Position numbers and translations under genes: made by a program
Source: a virus
Strand: one strand, 5' to 3'
Virus record (IMG/VR): IMGVR_UViG_3300026078_000450
Location: 1-20,845 of that record
DNA length: 20,845 nt
Notes under the pieces: model-generated
What the model was told of the DNA's origin: nothing
Databases searched by the model: none
What the model saw: the letters and a program-made list of their open reading frames with translations, nothing else
Part shown: piece after piece, positions 1,287 through 15,846 of the stretch
Position numbering within the stretch: the stretch's first letter is position 1
Layout: each line of letters opens with the position of its first letter

Positions 1287-1579
1287 CGACTGGATACAAA
1301 GAAAAACGCATAGGCCTAATCAGCTGCCTGCGCATCGGTGTTGACGATCGCTCCGGCGATAAACTCGCAATCACCTTCAGCGTCGTGCTCGGAGAATCCT
1401 CCGTCTGCTCGCTTGGCGTTTACGGGCAAGAGGCTGCGGATGCGATCGTGGCCGCCGGATATGAGGATATCTCCAGGTGCCGAGCTTGCTACTGCGTATC
1501 GCTGGAAAAGGATGGCGCGTGGGGCACGAGCTGCTTGGTTGGGTTCGCTGGCTTCGTTAAGGCTGGGACGGTAAAATGA
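1283..1579 (+). CDS. Cysteine-rich hypothetical protein, 98 aa
   Basis: The start at 1283 has AAGGAG (1267-1272) 10 bases upstream. Closer ATG codons at 1274 and 1277 lead into a frame that soon stops, so 1283 is preferred. The product has six cysteines, three of them clustered around residues 66-71 (CRACYC), and alternating hydrophobic/polar stretches suggesting beta strands. This does not match a zinc ribbon I can name. It is coupled to the RecT-like gene by an ATGA overlap at 1576-1579, so it may act with it, but that is only inference from position. Confidence 0.7.
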   Translation: MTTGYKEKRIGLISCLRIGVDDRSGDKLAITFSVVLGESSVCSLGVYGQEAADAIVAAGYEDISRCRACYCVSLEKDGAWGTSCLVGFAGFVKAGTVK

Positions 1580-2544
1580 ACGACCGCGCCATAGCCAAAG
1601 TCGACGCCGCGCACATCGAGTGCGACCCCATGCGCGACTGGGAGGTGATGCGCCAGCAAGCCGAGGCGCTGGTCAAATCTCGCCTGCTGCCGCGCGCCGT
1701 CGACACGCCCGAGAAGGCCATCGCCATTATCCAAACGGGCCGCGAGCTCGGCATCGGGCCCATGCAGGCTCTCCGCTCGATTCACGTCATCGAGGGCAAG
1801 CCGACCATGTCCGCCGAGCTCATGGCCGGCCTCGTGCTCGCTCGCCTTCCTGGCTCGCTGCTCCGAGTCGCGTCAACATCGAACGAGGAGTGTACCGTTG
1901 AAGCCGGGCGGCAGGGCCAACAGGCGACGCTCTTCCGGTTCTCGATGGCGGACGCGCGCGCTGCGGGACTCGTCGGCAAGGACAATTGGAAGAAGTACCC
2001 GGCGGCGATGCTGCGCGCTCGCTGTCTCGCCATGGCGTCGCGCGCCGTGTTCCCGGACGCAACAATGGGCATGCTCGACCCGGACGAGGTCGGCGCGATC
2101 ACGACGGAGGGCGGCGAGGTGGTGAGCTTCGAGCCGCAGGTCCGCGCCATATCGCCGCATTCGCACCCGGATGAAGACGAGATGCCGAGCGCTGCCGACC
2201 CCGACGTAGCCGCCGACCTGCTCCGCCGCATGGAATCCGCGAAGGCATTTCTGCAAGTCGTCGACAGCTACGACAAGGCGCTACAGCTGCGCGAAATCCT
2301 CGGCAGCGCCGGCAAGCAAAGCCAGCTGACGCGCGACGTGCAGGCTGCGAAGGAAGCGCGCGCAATCACGCCGGAGCAGCACAAGGAGCTGAGCAAGCTC
2401 TGGCAGCATTGCCATCGCCAGTGCGCGAAGCTCGAGAAGGAGCTGGCGCCGAGTGCGGAGGATGTGTCGCACGCCAGCGGCGACTTTGCCGGCGCCAATC
2501 GCGAGGAGCATGACTATGACCCAGCGGATGATTTCGACCGATGA
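1576..2544 (+). CDS. RecT-like single-strand DNA annealing protein
   Basis: This 322-residue protein resembles phage RecT-family recombinases, which coat single-stranded DNA and anneal it to complementary strands during phage recombination or replication. The recognisable core spans about residues 30-175. It holds a helix with IIQTGRELGIGPMQALRSIH (51-70), a GKPTMSAELMA segment (74-84), and the NWKKYPAAMLRARCLA block (137-152) followed by an FPD...DPDEVG region; blocks of this kind are typical of RecT-like proteins. The C-terminal 140 residues are helical (210-290) and end in an acidic tail, DYDPADDFDR (313-322), recalling the protein-docking tails of single-strand binding proteins. It overlaps its neighbours by ATGA on both sides. 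No partner exonuclease gene is visible in the window. Family call from memory of motifs, not a search. Confidence 0.75.
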   Translation: MNDRAIAKVDAAHIECDPMRDWEVMRQQAEALVKSRLLPRAVDTPEKAIAIIQTGRELGIGPMQALRSIHVIEGKPTMSAELMAGLVLARLPGSLLRVASTSNEECTVEAGRQGQQATLFRFSMADARAAGLVGKDNWKKYPAAMLRARCLAMASRAVFPDATMGMLDPDEVGAITTEGGEVVSFEPQVRAISPHSHPDEDEMPSAADPDVAADLLRRMESAKAFLQVVDSYDKALQLREILGSAGKQSQLTRDVQAAKEARAITPEQHKELSKLWQHCHRQCAKLEKELAPSAEDVSHASGDFAGANREEHDYDPADDFDR

Positions 2545-6262: not shown

Positions 6263-6670
6263 TCAGTTGCCGACTGGGTCCTGCAGGGATTGGGTGAGAA
6301 AAACGACGGTCGCGCCCGCGCCGATCGTCAGCGTGCTAACGATGAGTTCCGCGCCGGAACCGGCTATCCCCACGCTCACGTCGGCCACAACAGTGGTTCC
6401 GTCTGACTCGAACAGGCGCGCGAAAGTAGCTGTTCCCGCGTTCGGCGCATTCGTCTCGGAACTGATTGCGTTCGAAGTGCAGGTGCCCGTGCTGTCCGCC
6501 GCGCCGAATGCGGGGTTGCTATACCCACCGGTAGCCAGAAGCGTGTTTCCGGAGAGGGCCGTATCGGCGTCAGTTGGGCGCGTTCCGTTGTAGAGCCGGA
6601 TGAATCCGCCGTCGCAGCGAGCCGCCTTCGTCTGCGCGTTGGCTTGTCTGAGTGATAGTCGGAATCTCAT
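6263..6670 (-). CDS. Beta-rich virion-associated protein, 135 aa
   Basis: The start is taken at ATG 6670, which overlaps the preceding stop (ATGA) and has GGAG about 9 bases upstream; an upstream TTG is less likely. The product is rich in Thr, Ser, Gly and Ala with alternating hydrophobics, implying beta structure. It contains FIRLYNGTRP and GTATFARLFESDGTTVV, segments that recur in small phage structural proteins I have seen near tail-fibre genes. Its exact function is unknown. Its position directly after the SGNH fibre suggests a virion or fibre accessory part. Confidence 0.7.
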   Translation of the reverse strand: MRFRLSLRQANAQTKAARCDGGFIRLYNGTRPTDADTALSGNTLLATGGYSNPAFGAADSTGTCTSNAISSETNAPNAGTATFARLFESDGTTVVADVSVGIAGSGAELIVSTLTIGAGATVVFLTQSLQDPVGN

Positions 6671-8523
6671 AGTGAAGCGCTCCAAATTCTCATGTTTGCT
6701 AGGTCGGTCCCGGTAAGTTCGCGGTTGAAGTAAGCAGCTCCGGCTAAATCAAAGTTGGCGCAGAATGCTGTGGCCCCATCGCCGCGGCAGCCCCATGTGA
6801 AGCCGTTGGCCGCAGCCGCGCCAGCGTCACCCGTCGCTTGGACTACTCCACCCATGGTGATGGTCGAAGATGCGCCCTTCCACAAAACTTCGATCAGCTG
6901 GAACTGTGTGTTGAAGTTCGGCTGTGAACCGCTATTTGCGTTGAGGTTAACCCCTGCACTGACGCGCAATGCCGGCGGCGTAGCAGTGCTCAGGGTGATC
7001 AGCGCGGCCGTGTTGCTCGCGGATACGCCATCGTGGATCTGGGCGCCAACAACCTTAGTCAGAATCTTGGCGAAGAAGAAAAGGTGCCACGTTTGCGCAA
7101 GCGTCACCGATCCTGCGGGGCGCATGAGATCGTCGATGCCATCGAACCGCAGAACGCGCTTTCCGTTCGGGCTTTGTCCGGTTTTGATCAGAGGTCGCTG
7201 TCCGGCTGTCGCCTGCGTTGCGTCCCACAGGGCATGACCAGTTGCTGTGTCGAGGTTCGCGACCGTCGCAGCTGCGGTACCGTCCGCCACCGCATTGGAC
7301 GTGTCCGGGACGAATAGCGCTTGAATCCCGGCGATTGTTCTCGGATCCGGGACCGGATTCGTCACCGTTGCGCCGCCGGTGAACACCTCGGGCGCAGTCT
7401 TCTCGATGTAGGGGCGCAAGTACGGCACGACGTTCACCGCATATTGTGCGTGACCCGCGGTCGTTGGGTGCGGGTCACTGACGTTACCGGGAGTGACGAG
7501 TGTACGCCCGTCAACTAGCGCGCAGAATGTGGAGCGCGCTGCAACCACTGCCGCAATCGAAGAACGCCAGAGACTCGGTAGCTCCCCTTGGGCATTGACG
7601 CCCTCGCTGCCCTCAGCGACGTTCTGGAAGAGAATCAGCGTCTGGACCAGGCAGCGGACCGTCGGATCTGCGGCGTGGATAGCATCCAGAAGCTGACCCA
7701 TCTCAGTGGCATGGCTAGCGGCAGTTCCGGAAGTCCCAAATGCGTTGAAGTCATTCACGCCTAGAGCGATATAAACTTCCCGGAACTTCGATCCCGTGCA
7801 CCCGGCCATAATGTGCGCAACTGTCGCGGTAAACGTGCCGGCAGGAGTGACAATCCCGTGCAGCAACTGCCCCGACTGCCCGAAGATCGGAACGCTGTCG
7901 TATAGCGTCTGTGATTGACGCCAAAGCAGATCCCAACCGAGCAGCACCGGGGAGGCGGTTTCCCCTACGGAGATTGAATCACCGACCACGATCAAGCTCG
8001 CGACGGGCGTGCCCTGAATCACCGGCGTGTACTTGCTCGTGATACCCGTGACGTAGGCGCCCATCTCGACAATCTCGACGAGCTTTTGCCCGGCCGGGAG
8101 CGTGACGGCCTGCGTTTGCTTCACGTCGGTGGCCGTGAAGATGACGGTCTGGTTGTATACTTTGTTAACCCAGATCCCGACCTCATGCGGCGCGCTGCCG
8201 CCGAGCGCATGCGATACGGCCTCAATCGAGAGCGCCGTCTCGTCGGTGTTCAGCTGAATGGTTGCGCCAGGGTCGTGGCGCGTGAACACGTTTGGCGCAG
8301 AGCCCGTCACCAAGAACTGGGTGTTATGATGAAACCAGCTGTCCTGTGATGCCTGGAAAACAGCGACACCTCCGCCGCTGAACGATGCCCCGCCAGGAAT
8401 GCGCACACCGCCGCCACCAATGTACATCGCGCGCCGATGCTCCGGTCGGCGCGAACGGATGGAGCGCTGAGCATTATACGGACGGATCTGCCGCGCCTCT
8501 TCGGGAGTAGGCAGATGAATCAC
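6667..8523 (-). CDS. Tail fibre/spike with SGNH-hydrolase and lectin-like domains
   Basis: GTG 8523 overlaps the previous stop (GTGA) and is preferred to a TTG one codon upstream, giving 618 residues. The N-terminal 165 residues are beta-rich and Gly-rich (GGGGVRIPGGASFSGGG). From about 175 to 375 lies an SGNH/GDSL esterase: LIVVGDSISVG (catalytic Ser183), ALGVNDFN (block III, Asn257) and SDPHPTTAGH (Asp350, His352). The Asp-His spacing is one residue shorter than the usual DxxH. From about 400 to 618 a concanavalin-like fold is suggested by LFVPDTSN, VLRFDGIDD and FNRELTGTDLANMR. The enzyme probably removes acetyl or acyl groups from a surface polysaccharide during adsorption. The organisation fits a phage depolymerase or receptor-binding protein. 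Confidence 0.8.
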   Translation of the reverse strand: MIHLPTPEEARQIRPYNAQRSIRSRRPEHRRAMYIGGGGVRIPGGASFSGGGVAVFQASQDSWFHHNTQFLVTGSAPNVFTRHDPGATIQLNTDETALSIEAVSHALGGSAPHEVGIWVNKVYNQTVIFTATDVKQTQAVTLPAGQKLVEIVEMGAYVTGITSKYTPVIQGTPVASLIVVGDSISVGETASPVLLGWDLLWRQSQTLYDSVPIFGQSGQLLHGIVTPAGTFTATVAHIMAGCTGSKFREVYIALGVNDFNAFGTSGTAASHATEMGQLLDAIHAADPTVRCLVQTLILFQNVAEGSEGVNAQGELPSLWRSSIAAVVAARSTFCALVDGRTLVTPGNVSDPHPTTAGHAQYAVNVVPYLRPYIEKTAPEVFTGGATVTNPVPDPRTIAGIQALFVPDTSNAVADGTAAATVANLDTATGHALWDATQATAGQRPLIKTGQSPNGKRVLRFDGIDDLMRPAGSVTLAQTWHLFFFAKILTKVVGAQIHDGVSASNTAALITLSTATPPALRVSAGVNLNANSGSQPNFNTQFQLIEVLWKGASSTITMGGVVQATGDAGAAAANGFTWGCRGDGATAFCANFDLAGAAYFNRELTGTDLANMRIWSASL

Positions 8524-8825
8524 CAAAACACCATCACGTTTGTTGCGGTGCTACCCGAAGCCAAGAGCTTGATGGCTTGGATGTCCAGCACCGTGCCGGC
8601 TGGTAACGAAGGCGTCGTAACCTGCACGCCATCCAGGCCGTTATAGGCGAGCGCGCCCGCGCCGAATACCATAATGCGTCTACATGGGCGCCCCTCGCTC
8701 GGCATGGCGAGACCAGGCTGCGCGCCTTTGATTGGGTCGTTCGCTCCGATATCGTAGTCAGCTGGCGTCGTTGTCCATGCGACCCGCTGCGAGTCAGACG
8801 ATTCAGTGTTGGTAACCTTGAGCAT
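8520..8825 (-). CDS. Small beta-rich phage structural protein, 101 aa
   Basis: ATG 8825 follows a perfect AGGAGG ribosome site, so this is one of the better-translated small genes of the operon. The product has CRRIMVFGAGALAYNG, then a run of short hydrophobic strands ending in VMVFW. This pattern (a residue-poor N-terminus, a Gly-Ala-Gly turn, PAGTVLDIQAIKLLASGSTATNVM) recurs in small phage proteins encoded next to capsid or tail genes. Its role is not established. It overlaps the SGNH fibre gene by GTGA and may help attach or oligomerise it. Confidence 0.7.
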   Translation of the reverse strand: MLKVTNTESSDSQRVAWTTTPADYDIGANDPIKGAQPGLAMPSEGRPCRRIMVFGAGALAYNGLDGVQVTTPSLPAGTVLDIQAIKLLASGSTATNVMVFW

Positions 8826-11447: not shown

Positions 11448-13405
11448 GGTCCGTCGCCGGTGTCAGTGTCGGGCTCGGGTGCTCCGACGATGTTCTCCGA
11501 TGGCGTCGGGCGCGGCCCTTCCAGTGGCTCCCCGGTAGCGCGCGAAACGTTCACGTCTTTCTGTGCGCGCGTACGCTCGTTCACCATGCGCGGGTCGATG
11601 GTCGCCGCCGTCGAGTCGAGCTGGTAGTCGTATTGCGAGAGCTCGTGCAGGCGCTGTTTAAGGCTACGTAGCGCGTCGCCGGGCGTCTTGCCCATGACGG
11701 TCGGGATCTCGTGCTCGGCCTCCTCGGCGGTGATCGATTTGTCGTAAATCGTCTGCGCATGCAGGCGCGCGCTGTTCGCTCGAGCGCGCCGCAGCGCGCG
11801 CCCCTCTTCGCCAGCGAGAGAGTCGGGCAGGTGCCCCGCGACGTAACCGATGCCCGGCGACTTCGGCAGCTCGGTAGCTGGGCGGCCCGTCTTCGGGTCG
11901 ATGACGGTCCCGGTCGCCTTGTCGATGGCGACACCCTGCAGCTTCGCTTCCTCTTCGAGAGCTGAATAGAGGCGAGCAATCTGCTCTTTCTTGGTGCCGT
12001 AGGTCGCCTTCTGGCGAGCAAGCGCTTGCGGGGTGAGGCCAAGAGCGCCCTGGTCCTTCCCCGGCTTGCCGAGCAGCTTGAGTCTCGCCTCTTGCTCGGC
12101 CGGCGTGAGCGGGCGCGGGCCGCCGCCTTCCGCCTGGTGGAACTTGTCTTCCGTCGCGGTCGTCGTCTTGCCGAGCGCGAGCTCCGCCTTTTGCTGCTCG
12201 CGCATGAGCGAGTCCTTCTGGAATTGCGCGGCCAGCGCGGCGGCGTTCGACGAAATCGTCCGGCTCTGCGCCTGCGCGGCGAATTGGCTCACCTCGGTTT
12301 CAGCGACCTTGTTCATGGCCTGCTGAAGACCGGCTTTCGCCATATCGATGTCGCCGTGATAGTAGTTGGCGAATCGCGCGAGCGCGTTGTTGCGGTCCGC
12401 GCGCCCGGCCTCATACGCCTGCTGCTGCGCCGCGATATCGTTTCGGATCTGCTGCTGGACGTACTCGAAGGCGAAGTTCTGCGAGTGCCCGAGGCTCGCG
12501 CCGGCCGCGCCGAGCGCCTGGCCGATCACGCTCATGATGTTCGCGATCGGCTCGCGCCGCGAAAAGAACCGATTCGGGTCGGGCTGCGCGGACTGTGAAT
12601 AGTCGGCGAGTTCGCGCTCCATGTGCTGATTCTGCTGCTGATACGCCTGCTGCTTGCGCTGGATCTCCGCCTGTTGCGCGGCGAGGTGTTGCCGCGCGGC
12701 GAGGTTGTCAGCGGCGGCTTTCGCTGCCTGAGCGTCAGCGATCTGCTTCGCCGTGGCCTGCTGCCCAAGCTGCGCATCGAGCACGGATTGGTCCGCGGCA
12801 AGGCGGTCGCGCGCGGCTTGCGGGTCGTACGCCGGTCCCGCTTCGACCGTCGTCCGCTGCGACACCGGCGCGTAGCCAGCCGGGCGAGCTGGACCGCCGC
12901 CCGTGGTGCCGCGGATGAGCTCGGCCGCTGCACGCTGCGCAACCACGTCGCGCGCTTGCTGGACGGCGTCTTGCGGAGCCGGCTCCGGCTGCGCAGGCGG
13001 CGGAGGGGGGCCGTATGGAGTTCCCCCGGGCGCGGGGGGCGCAGGCTGGGAGGGCGCTGCGGCGGGCGCCGCGGGGGTCGGAGGGGGCGCGTCGGGCCTC
13101 AGCAGGCCGGTCGCAATCCCGAGCGCGGGCCCGGAGGCGAGGTGAGTGATAACCGGGTGCTCGGCTGCGAAGTTCGCTGCGGCGCTGATTACGGGGTGGC
13201 GCTCTGCCCAGCTTCCCGCGTCCGTGCGTGTCTCGCCCGGCGGCTTGTCGTTCGCCGCAAGCCGCTCATCCGGTTGCCCCAGCTGCTCGCGGTAGTGGCC
13301 GGCGATCTCCGGCAGCGCCATCAATGGCGGTCGCCCGTCGTCGAAATGGAGCATGCCGGCGCCGGGTAGCTCCGGGACATCGGTCACGTCGATGACTTTC
13401 GCCAT
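11444..13405 (-). CDS. Large putative DNA-ejection/internal virion protein, 653 aa
   Basis: ATG 13405 shares a base with the preceding stop (TGATG). Residues 1-100 include two related EHPVI/RHPVISA segments (around 69-90). A Pro/Ala linker follows (103-147), then long Gln/Ala-rich coiled coils (about 185-275), a short hydrophobic Gly-Ala segment (MSVIGQALGAAGASLG, about 288-303) and more helical sequence rich in Gln. The C-terminus is Pro/Glu-rich and acidic. No enzymatic motif is evident. Coiled-coil, low-complexity proteins of this size beside two similar genes fit the multi-protein ejection sets of podoviruses. It overlaps the 872-residue gene by ATGA. Confidence 0.6.
   Translation of the reverse strand: MAKVIDVTDVPELPGAGMLHFDDGRPPLMALPEIAGHYREQLGQPDERLAANDKPPGETRTDAGSWAERHPVISAAANFAAEHPVITHLASGPALGIATGLLRPDAPPPTPAAPAAAPSQPAPPAPGGTPYGPPPPPAQPEPAPQDAVQQARDVVAQRAAAELIRGTTGGGPARPAGYAPVSQRTTVEAGPAYDPQAARDRLAADQSVLDAQLGQQATAKQIADAQAAKAAADNLAARQHLAAQQAEIQRKQQAYQQQNQHMERELADYSQSAQPDPNRFFSRREPIANIMSVIGQALGAAGASLGHSQNFAFEYVQQQIRNDIAAQQQAYEAGRADRNNALARFANYYHGDIDMAKAGLQQAMNKVAETEVSQFAAQAQSRTISSNAAALAAQFQKDSLMREQQKAELALGKTTTATEDKFHQAEGGGPRPLTPAEQEARLKLLGKPGKDQGALGLTPQALARQKATYGTKKEQIARLYSALEEEAKLQGVAIDKATGTVIDPKTGRPATELPKSPGIGYVAGHLPDSLAGEEGRALRRARANSARLHAQTIYDKSITAEEAEHEIPTVMGKTPGDALRSLKQRLHELSQYDYQLDSTAATIDPRMVNERTRAQKDVNVSRATGEPLEGPRPTPSENIVGAPEPDTDTGDGP
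13064..13096 (+). other. G-quadruplex motif in the Pro-linker codons
   Basis: The plus strand reads four G-tracts separated by loops of 6, 5 and 6 bases: GGG at 13064, GGGGG at 13073, GGGGG at 13083 and GGG at 13094. This meets the usual quadruplex rule. The leftward mRNA is C-rich here, so the G strand is the template strand. The motif follows from the Pro/Ala codons of the linker and may have no function of its own. Confidence 0.35.
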
Positions 13406-15846
13406 CAGCGCGCGGCCCTCTGGTACGGCTGGTTGCTCGGATAGGGGTCAGAACCGGTCGGGCGAAAGGTGACGCGCCCGGCGTATCGACTCGCGTCAGC
13501 GATCGGCTGATAGGGCGACTGCTTGGCGGGTGCGTAATCCGGGTACGGCGCACCGCGCGGGGTGGCGCTGAGCTTGACGGTGTCGCGCTTGTAACGCTCG
13601 TCCGACGTAGCGTCCGTACCTGGCTCCTGTGGCTCTGGGTACTTGCTTGAGCCTTTGAGCAGGCCTTCCAGCTCAGCGAGCTTCGCGTCGAGCGCGTCGA
13701 GCTGGTTTTGCTGCGCGTGGTTTTGCGCCGTGTTCACGGTAGCGAGGCGCGCGCCGTTGACCTGCAACTTCCCGGTACCCGGCTCCGCCGTGACCGCGCC
13801 GCGCGTAACCGGGTGCGCAGCAAGGTCCTGCGCCATCGGCCCGACGTAGGTGCCTGCGCCATCGCGCGGATCTTTGTATTGGTAGATGCTGCCCGGGGCA
13901 TTGCGCGCCGAGTCGGCCAGCAGCGCATCCCCTTGGCTCAAAATCGGGTGTGAATCGTCGCGAGCGAAGCGCTGGTATGCGCGCGCACTCGGCGGCCCCG
14001 ACGTGAGCGATTGCCCGGCCGCCGACAGGCCGGCTCCGAGCGCCTTGCTGGCATCGGGCCCGGTGTCCGTCATCGAATTGGTGCCGTCGTCCGCCTTCGG
14101 GAGCTTGTCCGCTGGAATTTTGGCGTACTTCGCTACGTCTTTTTGGTCGGCCGCGGTCGAAAGCCCATGCTGGTCGGCGATCGAGAGCAGCGCATGGTAG
14201 GCGCTCTTCGAGCCGCCCGCGCCGCGCGAGGCGTCCGAGATCGGCTGATATGAGGAGATGAGTCGGCTCGGGTTGTGCGGGTCCCGTTGCGTCGCCGCCG
14301 GATGCTGAGGCTCGTCAGCGTCGTCATAATTCACCGGGATCCCGCGCAGCCGCGCGTAGTGCATCAACGGATCCTCGCCGTCACTATCGACAAGCGGCGC
14401 GCCGCGCGTGTAGCTCAGAGGCTGAATGTTGTCCTTCGCGCGAATGTCGGACGCAAGCTTGCCGAGCGCCTTGCCGGCCATGTTACCGGCGACGCTACCG
14501 AGCACGCCGCCAACGGGCCCGCCAACGGCCGAGCCGATCACGCCTCCCGCGACGCTGCCCGCCGTGCCACCGATCGCGCTGCCTTCCGCCGCGTGCGCCG
14601 CCGAATCCTGGCTTGCTTTCGACGGCCCGAGCGATTCGGTCGACTGAGCTGGGGCTTGGCTAGGAAGCGGGGCCGGGCCCTGATTGCTCAGCGGCTGGAT
14701 GTTCGTTTTGTAGCGCTCGTCGGATGTGGCGGCGATGACGCCGCCCGCCGCGGAGAGTCCCCCACCTACGTACGCCTGCTGACGGTTCGCATCGGCGATG
14801 CCGGCTTGCGTCGCGTTGCCGGTGTCTATGCCGTGCGTCTGGTTCGCCGACGCCCACTCAGACTCGCGCCCCGCGAGCGCCGTCGCGTTGATGTTCATCT
14901 GCTGCGTTTGGGCACCCATCTCCGAGCCCATGCCCGCTTGTTGCGCGGCCATCTGCTGCTGTGCCCACGCCTGTGAAGTGGCGTCGTTGAGCTGCGTCCC
15001 CTGCAGAGCGGTGTTCGTCGCGTACTGCGCGCCAGCGAGCCCAAGCTGCCCCGTGCCCTGGTCGCCCGTGACGACCTGACCGGCGAGATTTCCCGCTTGG
15101 CCCATGGCGCTGAGGCGCTGCCCTTGGAAAGCCGTGTTCTCGTTCGCGCGAAGCTCTGCCGCCTGCGCGTTCGCGCCCTGTTGCGTAAGAGCATTCTGCG
15201 CCGCAGCCTGCCGCAGCGCCGCCGCGCTTCCGCCCATGCCGCGACCGGAGCGCGCCATCGCCAGCGCGTTCGCCGTGTTGGCGTTCGTCGCTTGCTGCAA
15301 CTGCGCTTGCGCGGCGCTCGGCCCCGGTCCCTGGTTGGAGAAATCCATCAGCGCGTTGTAGGCTCCGGTCTGCAGCCCGCGATCGTTCGCGGCGTTCGCC
15401 GTTGCCGCGTTGTAGGCGCCGGTGTCGCCCTGATACATACTGGTGCCGCGCGCGCCCGCGCCTGCCGACAAGTCGCCTGCTCGCCCGGCGTCTGCGCCAA
15501 ACTGGCTACTGTACTTGTCACCCGTCGCCTGCGCGTTGCCGAGCATGGCGGCGGTCGGTGCGTTGTTATTGGTGCCGAGCCCGAAGTCACCTTGTCGCTT
15601 CGCGAGCGCTTCGGCGTCGCTGAGATTGCCGAAGAGCGAGCTCTGTACCCCGAGCCCGTAATCGTACTGGTGGCTTCCGCCGAGCTCCGAGCCGCGCGCG
15701 ACCGCCTGGTCAACCCCGAGTTTCGTTTCGTGTCGGCCGCCATTCTCGCCTAGGTGAGTTAACCCTGGCCCTACCGGTGTCTGCTGACTGCTCAGCAGCG
15801 CGCGCTGTCGCTCCTCGGGCGTCATCGTTCCATCAGGATTCGGCAT
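13405..15846 (-). CDS. Putative ejection protein with S74-like chaperone motifs, 813 aa
   Basis: ATG 15846 shares a base with the preceding stop and follows GAGGAAAG. Residues 1-360 are Ala/Gln/Asn/Gly-rich with helical repeats. A Gly-zipper hydrophobic run (423-463) could cross or perforate a membrane. Around it are three copies of the SDxRxK motif typical of the peptidase-S74 intramolecular chaperone: SDERYKTNI (375), SDIRAKDNI (466) and SDERYKRD (748). An S74-like core lies at 653-730 (SIYQYKDP, VGPMAQDLAAHP, GTGKLQVNGARLATVNTA) with a terminal coiled coil (706-730). Ejection proteins carrying SDRRLK-type segments are known to me, so this is the likely class. Tail-fibre chaperone function is the alternative. 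Confidence 0.65.
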   Translation of the reverse strand: MPNPDGTMTPEERQRALLSSQQTPVGPGLTHLGENGGRHETKLGVDQAVARGSELGGSHQYDYGLGVQSSLFGNLSDAEALAKRQGDFGLGTNNNAPTAAMLGNAQATGDKYSSQFGADAGRAGDLSAGAGARGTSMYQGDTGAYNAATANAANDRGLQTGAYNALMDFSNQGPGPSAAQAQLQQATNANTANALAMARSGRGMGGSAAALRQAAAQNALTQQGANAQAAELRANENTAFQGQRLSAMGQAGNLAGQVVTGDQGTGQLGLAGAQYATNTALQGTQLNDATSQAWAQQQMAAQQAGMGSEMGAQTQQMNINATALAGRESEWASANQTHGIDTGNATQAGIADANRQQAYVGGGLSAAGGVIAATSDERYKTNIQPLSNQGPAPLPSQAPAQSTESLGPSKASQDSAAHAAEGSAIGGTAGSVAGGVIGSAVGGPVGGVLGSVAGNMAGKALGKLASDIRAKDNIQPLSYTRGAPLVDSDGEDPLMHYARLRGIPVNYDDADEPQHPAATQRDPHNPSRLISSYQPISDASRGAGGSKSAYHALLSIADQHGLSTAADQKDVAKYAKIPADKLPKADDGTNSMTDTGPDASKALGAGLSAAGQSLTSGPPSARAYQRFARDDSHPILSQGDALLADSARNAPGSIYQYKDPRDGAGTYVGPMAQDLAAHPVTRGAVTAEPGTGKLQVNGARLATVNTAQNHAQQNQLDALDAKLAELEGLLKGSSKYPEPQEPGTDATSDERYKRDTVKLSATPRGAPYPDYAPAKQSPYQPIADASRYAGRVTFRPTGSDPYPSNQPYQRAAR
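13486..13605 (-). repeat. Internal coding repeat, copy B
   Basis: Residues 748-787 of the 813-residue protein run SDERYK...RGAP...SPYQPIADASR. They are a shortened copy of residues 466-541 (SDIRAK...RGAP...SSYQPISDASR). The order of three short blocks is kept while the spacing between them differs. Confidence 0.6.
14224..14451 (-). repeat. Internal coding repeat, copy A
   Basis: Residues 466-541 hold the blocks SDIRAKDNIQPLS, RGAP and SSYQPISDASR. An extra lone copy of the first block, SDERYKTNIQPLSN, lies upstream at 14698-14724 on the minus strand. Copy A has about 36 more residues than copy B between RGAP and YQPI. Confidence 0.6.

Follow-up and report, generated by a model that had tools for sequence, protein, structure and literature searches.

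A spike base gene of the RcGTA Rcc01079 family paired with a fibre gene carrying a predicted SGNH esterase domain in a virus record

Introduction

In the available portions of the reports on the RcGTA head spike, an Rcc01079 pentamer is seated on the capsid pentamers; one fibre (Rcc01080) is attached to it through residues 2-10 at the fibre N-terminus, and the body of this fibre binds capsule (PMC7296036, PMC10218006). According to the accessible text of two further reports, the phage SGNH fibre Possum gp66 removes O-acetyl groups from the O-polysaccharide (O-antigen) of its host (PMC9569702), and two Klebsiella prophage SGNH fibres hydrolyse pNP-acetate (PMC13123978). Phage SGNH deacetylases on tails and GTA head spikes as capsule binders are therefore both already known. 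A literature search confined largely to papers outside subscription returned no pairing of a phage head spike, or head fiber, with SGNH.

Here we describe a gene pair from a virus record of 20,845 bases, assigned to a soil phage, the whole of which is referred to as the window. The pair combines a base protein of the RcGTA type with a fibre that contains a predicted SGNH domain.

Gene organisation of the fibre locus

The base gene, the fibre gene and the gene that follows them are arranged as listed.

8520..8825, minus strand: spike base protein of the RcGTA Rcc01079 family, 101 aa, above the NF048002 cut-off
6667..8523, minus strand: putative spike fibre with a predicted SGNH esterase domain, 618 aa, GTG start at 8523 and stop at 6667
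6263..6670, minus strand: gene following the fibre, assigned to the virion structural proteins of PHROG 3758 (match to phrog_3758 from 6661 down, E=3.2e-23)

The fibre gene's GTG start and the upstream gene's stop share the sequence GTGA, and the fibre stop overlaps the next gene as ATGA. The fibre gene thus lies directly after the base gene, in the gene order of a head spike. A preliminary description of this DNA had placed the fibre at 6667-8523, and its residue numbering (Ser183, Asp350, His352) proves exact when counted from the GTG, with GDS at 181-183, GVND at 255-258 and D350-P351-H352; the glycine-rich N-terminal stretch that it mentioned is likewise present (MYIGGGGVRIPGGASFSGGG). GC content at third codon positions (0.69) exceeds that at first (0.62) and second (0.51) positions, which fits a coding frame in a GC-rich record. 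An identical copy of the fibre gene, DPH included, occurs on a second contig (IMG/VR record IMGVR_UViG_3300005614_000085), which speaks against a sequencing error as the origin of DPH, with the reservation that the two metagenomes may be related.

The product of 8520-8825 scores 35.9 bits against NF048002 ('spike base protein, RCAP_Rcc01079 family'; cut-off 28), and its top PDB match by phmmer is 6tb9, the Rcc01079 base of the RcGTA head spike (E=0.033). The window base was found again (L157, L158) in a viral-contig scan led by the base protein of a Hyphomicrobiales metagenome-assembled genome (MAG). Because a spike base gene adjoins it upstream, we assign the fibre to the RcGTA head-spike system. 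The fibre role given in the preliminary description is well supported by domain, gene order and fold match, but its assumption of a tail-type fibre was made with the base gene directly upstream overlooked. Within the window, the base gene has putative ejection-protein genes on one side and lysis genes on the other, outside the head module.

Rfam and tRNA scans of the window were both empty, and a search of phage isolates with a 1008-aa structural protein gave no match. An 813-aa structural protein (13405-15846, minus strand) matches Peptidase_S74 (endosialidase chaperone) at residues 648-676 only; SDERYK-like motifs occur more than once along this protein, an arrangement that differs from the usual C-terminal chaperone domain.

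A conserved N-terminus and a variable fibre body

Comparison with sister phages sets the beginning of the fibre apart from the rest.

8392..8523, minus strand: N-terminal anchor, residues 1-44, common to two sister phages (alignments A1, A2)

The sister phage contigs L004 and L005 carry a base that is 100% and 95% identical to the window base, and their fibres begin with the same 44 residues, with few changes, and continue into different bodies. A protein search matched the window fibre to two sister records, over residues 1-54 in one and over residues 1-52 and 390-482 in the other. Pfam gave no match, SGNH included, on the L004 and L005 fibres. Since these phages keep the base and the N-terminus while carrying non-SGNH bodies, the N-terminus appears to be an anchor and the body exchangeable. 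On the simplest reading of these alignments, bodies have been exchanged behind a conserved anchor, and the SGNH domain would have been gained by the window phage or lost by the others. The anchor would dock to the base protein. The PHROG 3758 gene (6263-6670) is replaced in the sisters by a different gene of 106-108 aa (7400-7720 in L004; also in L005), and therefore the fibre body and the follower gene change together.

No alternating hydrophobic-glycine docking peptide is found in the first 25 residues of the window fibre, where YIGGGGVRI at residues 34-42 is at best a loose counterpart. An alternating hydrophobic-small pattern (a loose one of our own choosing, and a few of its instances look spurious) is present in the first 25 residues of 31 of the 75 distinct genes next to a base gene (for example MLSLGLGLGL and MSGIGLGLGLGP) and in 65 of 956 other open reading frames of at least 150 aa. 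A short N-terminus of alternating hydrophobic residues and glycine, such as the RcGTA fibre has, is in this way seen again in many fibre-like proteins with no other relation to one another.

Another difference between the sister phages concerns the products of window 1576-2544 (plus strand) and L005 9539-10501 (minus strand), which we take to be recombinase-like proteins. The two agree over about a dozen residues at the beginning and about a hundred at the end but differ in the middle, which suggests that the middle domain has been exchanged between the sister phages.

The SGNH domain

The fibre body contains the following predicted domain and sequence blocks.

7399..7989, minus strand: SGNH hydrolase domain, residues 179-375 (PF13472; relatives above cut-off; Foldseek and VIA matches)
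7975..7983, minus strand: Block I Gly-Asp-Ser with the putative nucleophile Ser183, invariant in SGNH alignment A12
7750..7755, minus strand: Block III Asn257-Asp258, read from the translation and the SGNH alignment
7468..7476, minus strand: Block V Asp350-Pro351-His352 (DxH), read from the translation and the SGNH alignments

PF13472 matches residues 180-359 of the fibre over profile positions 2-177 of 178 (E=1.9e-6), with 29 bits against a curated cut-off of 32.9. Profile and pattern searches of viral contigs identified four relatives (L021 by motif), all of which exceed this cut-off: L160 with 45.2 bits, L161 with 58.1, L165 with 40.7 and L021 with 42.1. The SGNH assignment is therefore solid despite the shortfall of the window fibre itself. 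By tblastn, the SGNH part is 31% identical to L160 (E=1e-13), 28% to L161 (3e-11) and 27% to L165 (1e-6); in a multiple alignment of the core, the window sequence is 35% identical to L160. Taken together, the identities of the four relatives span 27-35%. L161 (1287 aa) and L165 (972 aa) are long proteins in which the SGNH domain is internal. The preliminary description had proposed an SGNH domain with a shortened Asp-His spacing, and both points hold: the Ser, Asn and His blocks (S183, N257, H352) follow in order over a full-length domain, and the window has DPH where four of four relatives have DxxH.

Beyond these relatives, NCBIfam gave a weak match of residues 343-371 to the CE2 acetylxylan esterase family NF042969 (E=0.002, 17.1 bits, cut-off 500). 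Residues 52-398 gave no sequence match among 50,697 phage records at E up to 10, and the SGNH part gave none in a plasmid search or, in a search run without a positive control, in 299 genomes from the phylum of G007. A 24-residue match in L018 runs antisense to a 441-aa phage protease/scaffold-like gene and was discarded as chance. Pfam, PHROG and NCBIfam searches gave no beta-helix depolymerase domain, nor any lyase or glycosidase domain. Known phage SGNH fibres leave the polysaccharide backbone intact, and the term depolymerase, previously applied to this protein, is accordingly dropped.

The DPH of Block V amounts to a one-residue deletion relative to DxxH. The accessible text on CE2 enzymes gives D-x-H as their catalytic pair: Asp333/His335 of CjCE2A form a working triad, in Asp789-Trp-His791 of CtCE2 the His is oriented by a main-chain carbonyl, the Asp lying out of place, and CE2 enzymes are active with DxH, some without any acid (PMC2661963). 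DXH is also described for AlgX and AlgJ in the available part of another report (PMC9487903). DxxH is thus a usual feature of SGNH enzymes and no strict one, with CE2 and AlgX/AlgJ as exceptions, and because these proteins use DxH the spacing of the window fibre is no argument against activity. A profile built from five SGNH sequences (A10) has the CE2 enzyme 4xvh as its best PDB match (E=1.7e-7), with D-Y-H-P-N aligned at Block V; with a second profile (A12), 4xvh ranks sixth in the PDB (E=3.8e-4).

Predicted structure and flanking domains of the fibre

An AlphaFold2 model of the whole fibre from the single sequence had a pLDDT of 32 and was discarded. A model of residues 50-385, made with three relatives, reached a pTM of 0.52 and a mean pLDDT of 47.5, with 62 of 336 residues at 70 or above and values of about 43 near Ser183, and is usable for the SGNH core only. 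From about residue 128 of its 336 residues, this model shows an alpha/beta fold, for which the matches in the PDB are SGNH esterases. Foldseek returned 60 matches at E<=0.001 (best E=4e-6), the CE2 entries 2wab, 2wao, 2waa and 4xvh lying between 4e-5 and 5e-4. Among the best 50 matches listed by VIA, Z ranges from 13.0 (over 166 residues, rmsd 3.4) to 11.1. Carbohydrate esterase families 2 and 3 and sialate O-acetylesterases are among the structural matches listed by the two programs.

The SGNH core is flanked by two further predicted domains.

7990..8346, minus strand: beta-rich domain before the SGNH domain, residues 60-178, with strands in low-confidence models
6670..7338, minus strand: C-terminal domain, residues 396-618, with partial matches to the L005 fibre and a Rollin protein

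Residues 60-178 have a weak PDB profile match to the CE2 enzyme 2waa (profile positions 34-125, E=0.0028), and the modelled domain may correspond to the jelly roll at the N-terminus of CE2 enzymes. On the C-terminal side, the stretch 390-482 shares 36% identity with the L005 sister-phage fibre (E=7.6e-5), and a Pseudomonas phage Rollin protein is 53.5% identical over residues 434-476 (E=8e-3). Pfam gave no match on residues 390-618 and so does not confirm the concanavalin-like C-terminus suggested in the preliminary description. The C-terminal domain is probably a lectin-like sandwich.

The base family in other viruses and in bacterial genomes

Among 385 genomes drawn from the class of a Hyphomicrobiales MAG, 10 have a match above the NF048002 cut-off; for genomes drawn from the phylum of this MAG the figure is 25 of 398. 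The viral-contig scan led by the base of the Hyphomicrobiales MAG yielded 60 loci, three of them without a called next gene, and 45 distinct next genes, one of which (<100 aa) was left out of the Pfam scan; among 35 genome regions, five lacked a next gene of 80 aa or more at a distance of up to 60 bases and were left out of the scan. In the 60 viral loci, 41 distinct genes are upstream neighbours of the base. Terminase, portal, head-morphogenesis and capsid proteins are among their products, which makes the base family mainly a component of head modules.

An SGNH domain beside a base gene is not the usual arrangement. Pfam support for SGNH (E<=0.01) was found in three of the 34 other members of alignment A4 (L081, L082 and L098, all from bacterial genomes) and in one of the 44 members of A6; on the grounds of an identical E-value, this last is taken to be L157, the copy that belongs to the window phage, which leaves 0 of 43. 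The L098/L026 fibre is the only one of the three bacterial fibres above the curated cut-off (PF13472, 35.3 bits), those of L081 (PF13472, 28.1 bits) and L082 (PF00657, 18.9 bits) lying under the cut-offs of their respective families. All three carry D-x-x-H. L086 and L123 have GDS-type motifs without a Pfam match.

Polysaccharide-synthesis markers are near two of the three Pfam-supported bacterial base-SGNH pairs. A bacterial sugar transferase and a Wzz/tyrosine kinase adjoin the pair in L026 (the same MAG contig as L098), and the region around L081 (L167) encodes an SLBB protein, a glycosyltransferase and a hexapeptide transferase. The region around L086 (L169), which has SGNH by motif only, encodes a Wzz protein. 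In the region around L082 (L168; G663:C3:547500-558000), a phage portal gene lies at a distance of 2.8 kb and a head-tail connector is also present; this cluster, with base and SGNH-like fibre between portal and connector, could be a gene transfer agent or prophage.

In a count of 37 base places in 33 genomes that are not independent (G741 and G743 look closely related, and four were reached via the base search), 10 lie within 15 kb, a limit of our choosing, of Wzz (PF02706) or Bac_transf (PF02397), where 1.3 would be expected for random positions (P=3e-7). Six lie within 15 kb of PF04860 portals, and none is near both a portal and Wzz/Bac_transf. The count leaves out G310 and G548, whose base matches are under the cut-off, and G604 and G482, which are adjacent second pieces. 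Because base genes lie near polysaccharide-synthesis genes far above chance, this distribution suggests that the arrangement in R. capsulatus, with spike genes beside capsule genes, is general.

The hexapeptide transferase of L167 (9216-9740), possibly an O-acetyltransferase, shares its locus with a base gene and an SGNH fibre gene. The maker and the remover of one acyl group may be neighbours there.

Proposed function and alternative explanations

That the fibre contains an SGNH esterase domain and acts as a virion receptor-binding protein is well supported by domain evidence, gene order and the match of the predicted fold. By analogy with the tested phage SGNH fibres, deacylation of a surface glycan is the best-supported function and the most likely one. 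The account that we favour, and consider fairly probable, is a two-part virion spike of an RcGTA-family base and an anchored SGNH fibre that O-deacylates host surface polysaccharide. The overlapping genes 8825-8520 and 8523-6667 would yield a small base protein and a long fibre hanging on the base by its conserved 44-residue N-terminus, the docking being deduced. The fibre body would comprise the beta-rich domain, the SGNH hydrolase and the probably lectin-like C-terminal domain, the lectin part holding an acylated host surface polysaccharide. Ser183 and His352, together with Asp350 or, as in CE2, a main-chain carbonyl, would remove O-acyl, most likely O-acetyl, groups. Deacylation would let the particle bind and pass through the polysaccharide layer with the chain uncut. 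The esterase activity and the substrate of the window fibre are both putative, and its position on the head, at the capsid vertices, would follow from the base family only.

Where the spike sits is the point on which the main alternative differs. The same esterase fibre might be mounted on the tail or neck of a podovirus-like phage, its base being a jelly-roll adaptor reused at the tail. The window phage is itself probably a podovirus, since SU10/P22-like portal genes and SU10-like adaptor genes occur in the sister record G003; these lie far from the base-fibre pair, and in the window the pair comes after the tail genes and the putative ejection genes, away from the capsid genes. The known phage SGNH fibres are, in the accessible accounts, tail fibres, and the window anchor departs from the RcGTA star peptide. 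The missing docking peptide and the location behind tail and putative ejection genes keep a tail position in play, yet at other viral loci terminase, portal and head genes are the usual surroundings of the base family, whose structurally solved member is described as binding capsid pentamers; we regard tail mounting as rather unlikely.

The head-spike esterase also has to be weighed against readings that change the chemistry. A catalytically dead or nearly dead SGNH domain serving as a binding module would agree with the altered Block V spacing relative to the four closest relatives and with a PF13472 score just below the cut-off. All of Ser, Asn, Asp and His are present, however, and in the available CE2 and AlgX/AlgJ reports (PMC2661963, PMC9487903) enzymes work with DxH, some CE2 members even lacking the acid, so that loss of activity seems distinctly improbable. 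An esterase whose target is not an acyl group of a surface glycan but, for instance, a lipid or the O-acetyl groups of peptidoglycan would fit the breadth of SGNH enzymes and the thioesterase/lysophospholipase TesA among the VIA matches listed. Against it stand the exposed position of the fibre, its probably lectin-like partner domain, capsule binding as the tested function of the base family, and the CE2/CE3 and sialate O-acetylesterase structures among the matches listed; we give it the least credence of all.

A broader proposal is tentative, and we hold it to be possible rather than probable: particles with RcGTA-type spikes, phages and GTAs alike, would carry O-deacylases on their capsid vertices, so that the head remodels the capsule first, and some base and SGNH pairs would be kept in the cell's own capsule or exopolysaccharide locus, enzyme and polysaccharide co-evolving and being exchanged together. 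If true, this would put a familiar enzyme in a new place, on the head, and explain how a spike releases the capsule that it binds. It would also yield a general and testable rule in which spike specificity follows capsule type, base and anchor staying while the body is swapped, and the residence of some base-fibre pairs in the capsule locus itself would be part of that rule.

Comparison with known systems

The locus shares with the RcGTA head spike a base of the Rcc01079 family encoded directly upstream of the fibre gene, and a fibre in which a distinct N-terminus is followed by a body presumably directed at polysaccharide. The accessible text describes the RcGTA fibre, which is 325 aa long, as lectin-like and without an enzyme domain, whereas the window fibre has SGNH; the RcGTA fibre also has the star peptide IALGLGLGL at residues 2-10, from which the window anchor differs. 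With the SGNH deacetylase fibres of G7C (gp63.1), Possum (gp66) and Klebsiella prophages, the window fibre shares an SGNH domain within a receptor-binding protein that has receptor-binding domains. Those are tail fibres, whereas the fibre gene of the window has the gene for a head-spike base as its partner. CE2 enzymes (CjCE2A, CtCE2) resemble it in the order of an SGNH domain after a beta-rich domain, here a predicted one, and in the D-x-H of Block V; they differ in that the overall similarity is weak (NF042969, 17.1 against 500 bits) and that the window fibre lacks the Trp between Asp and His.
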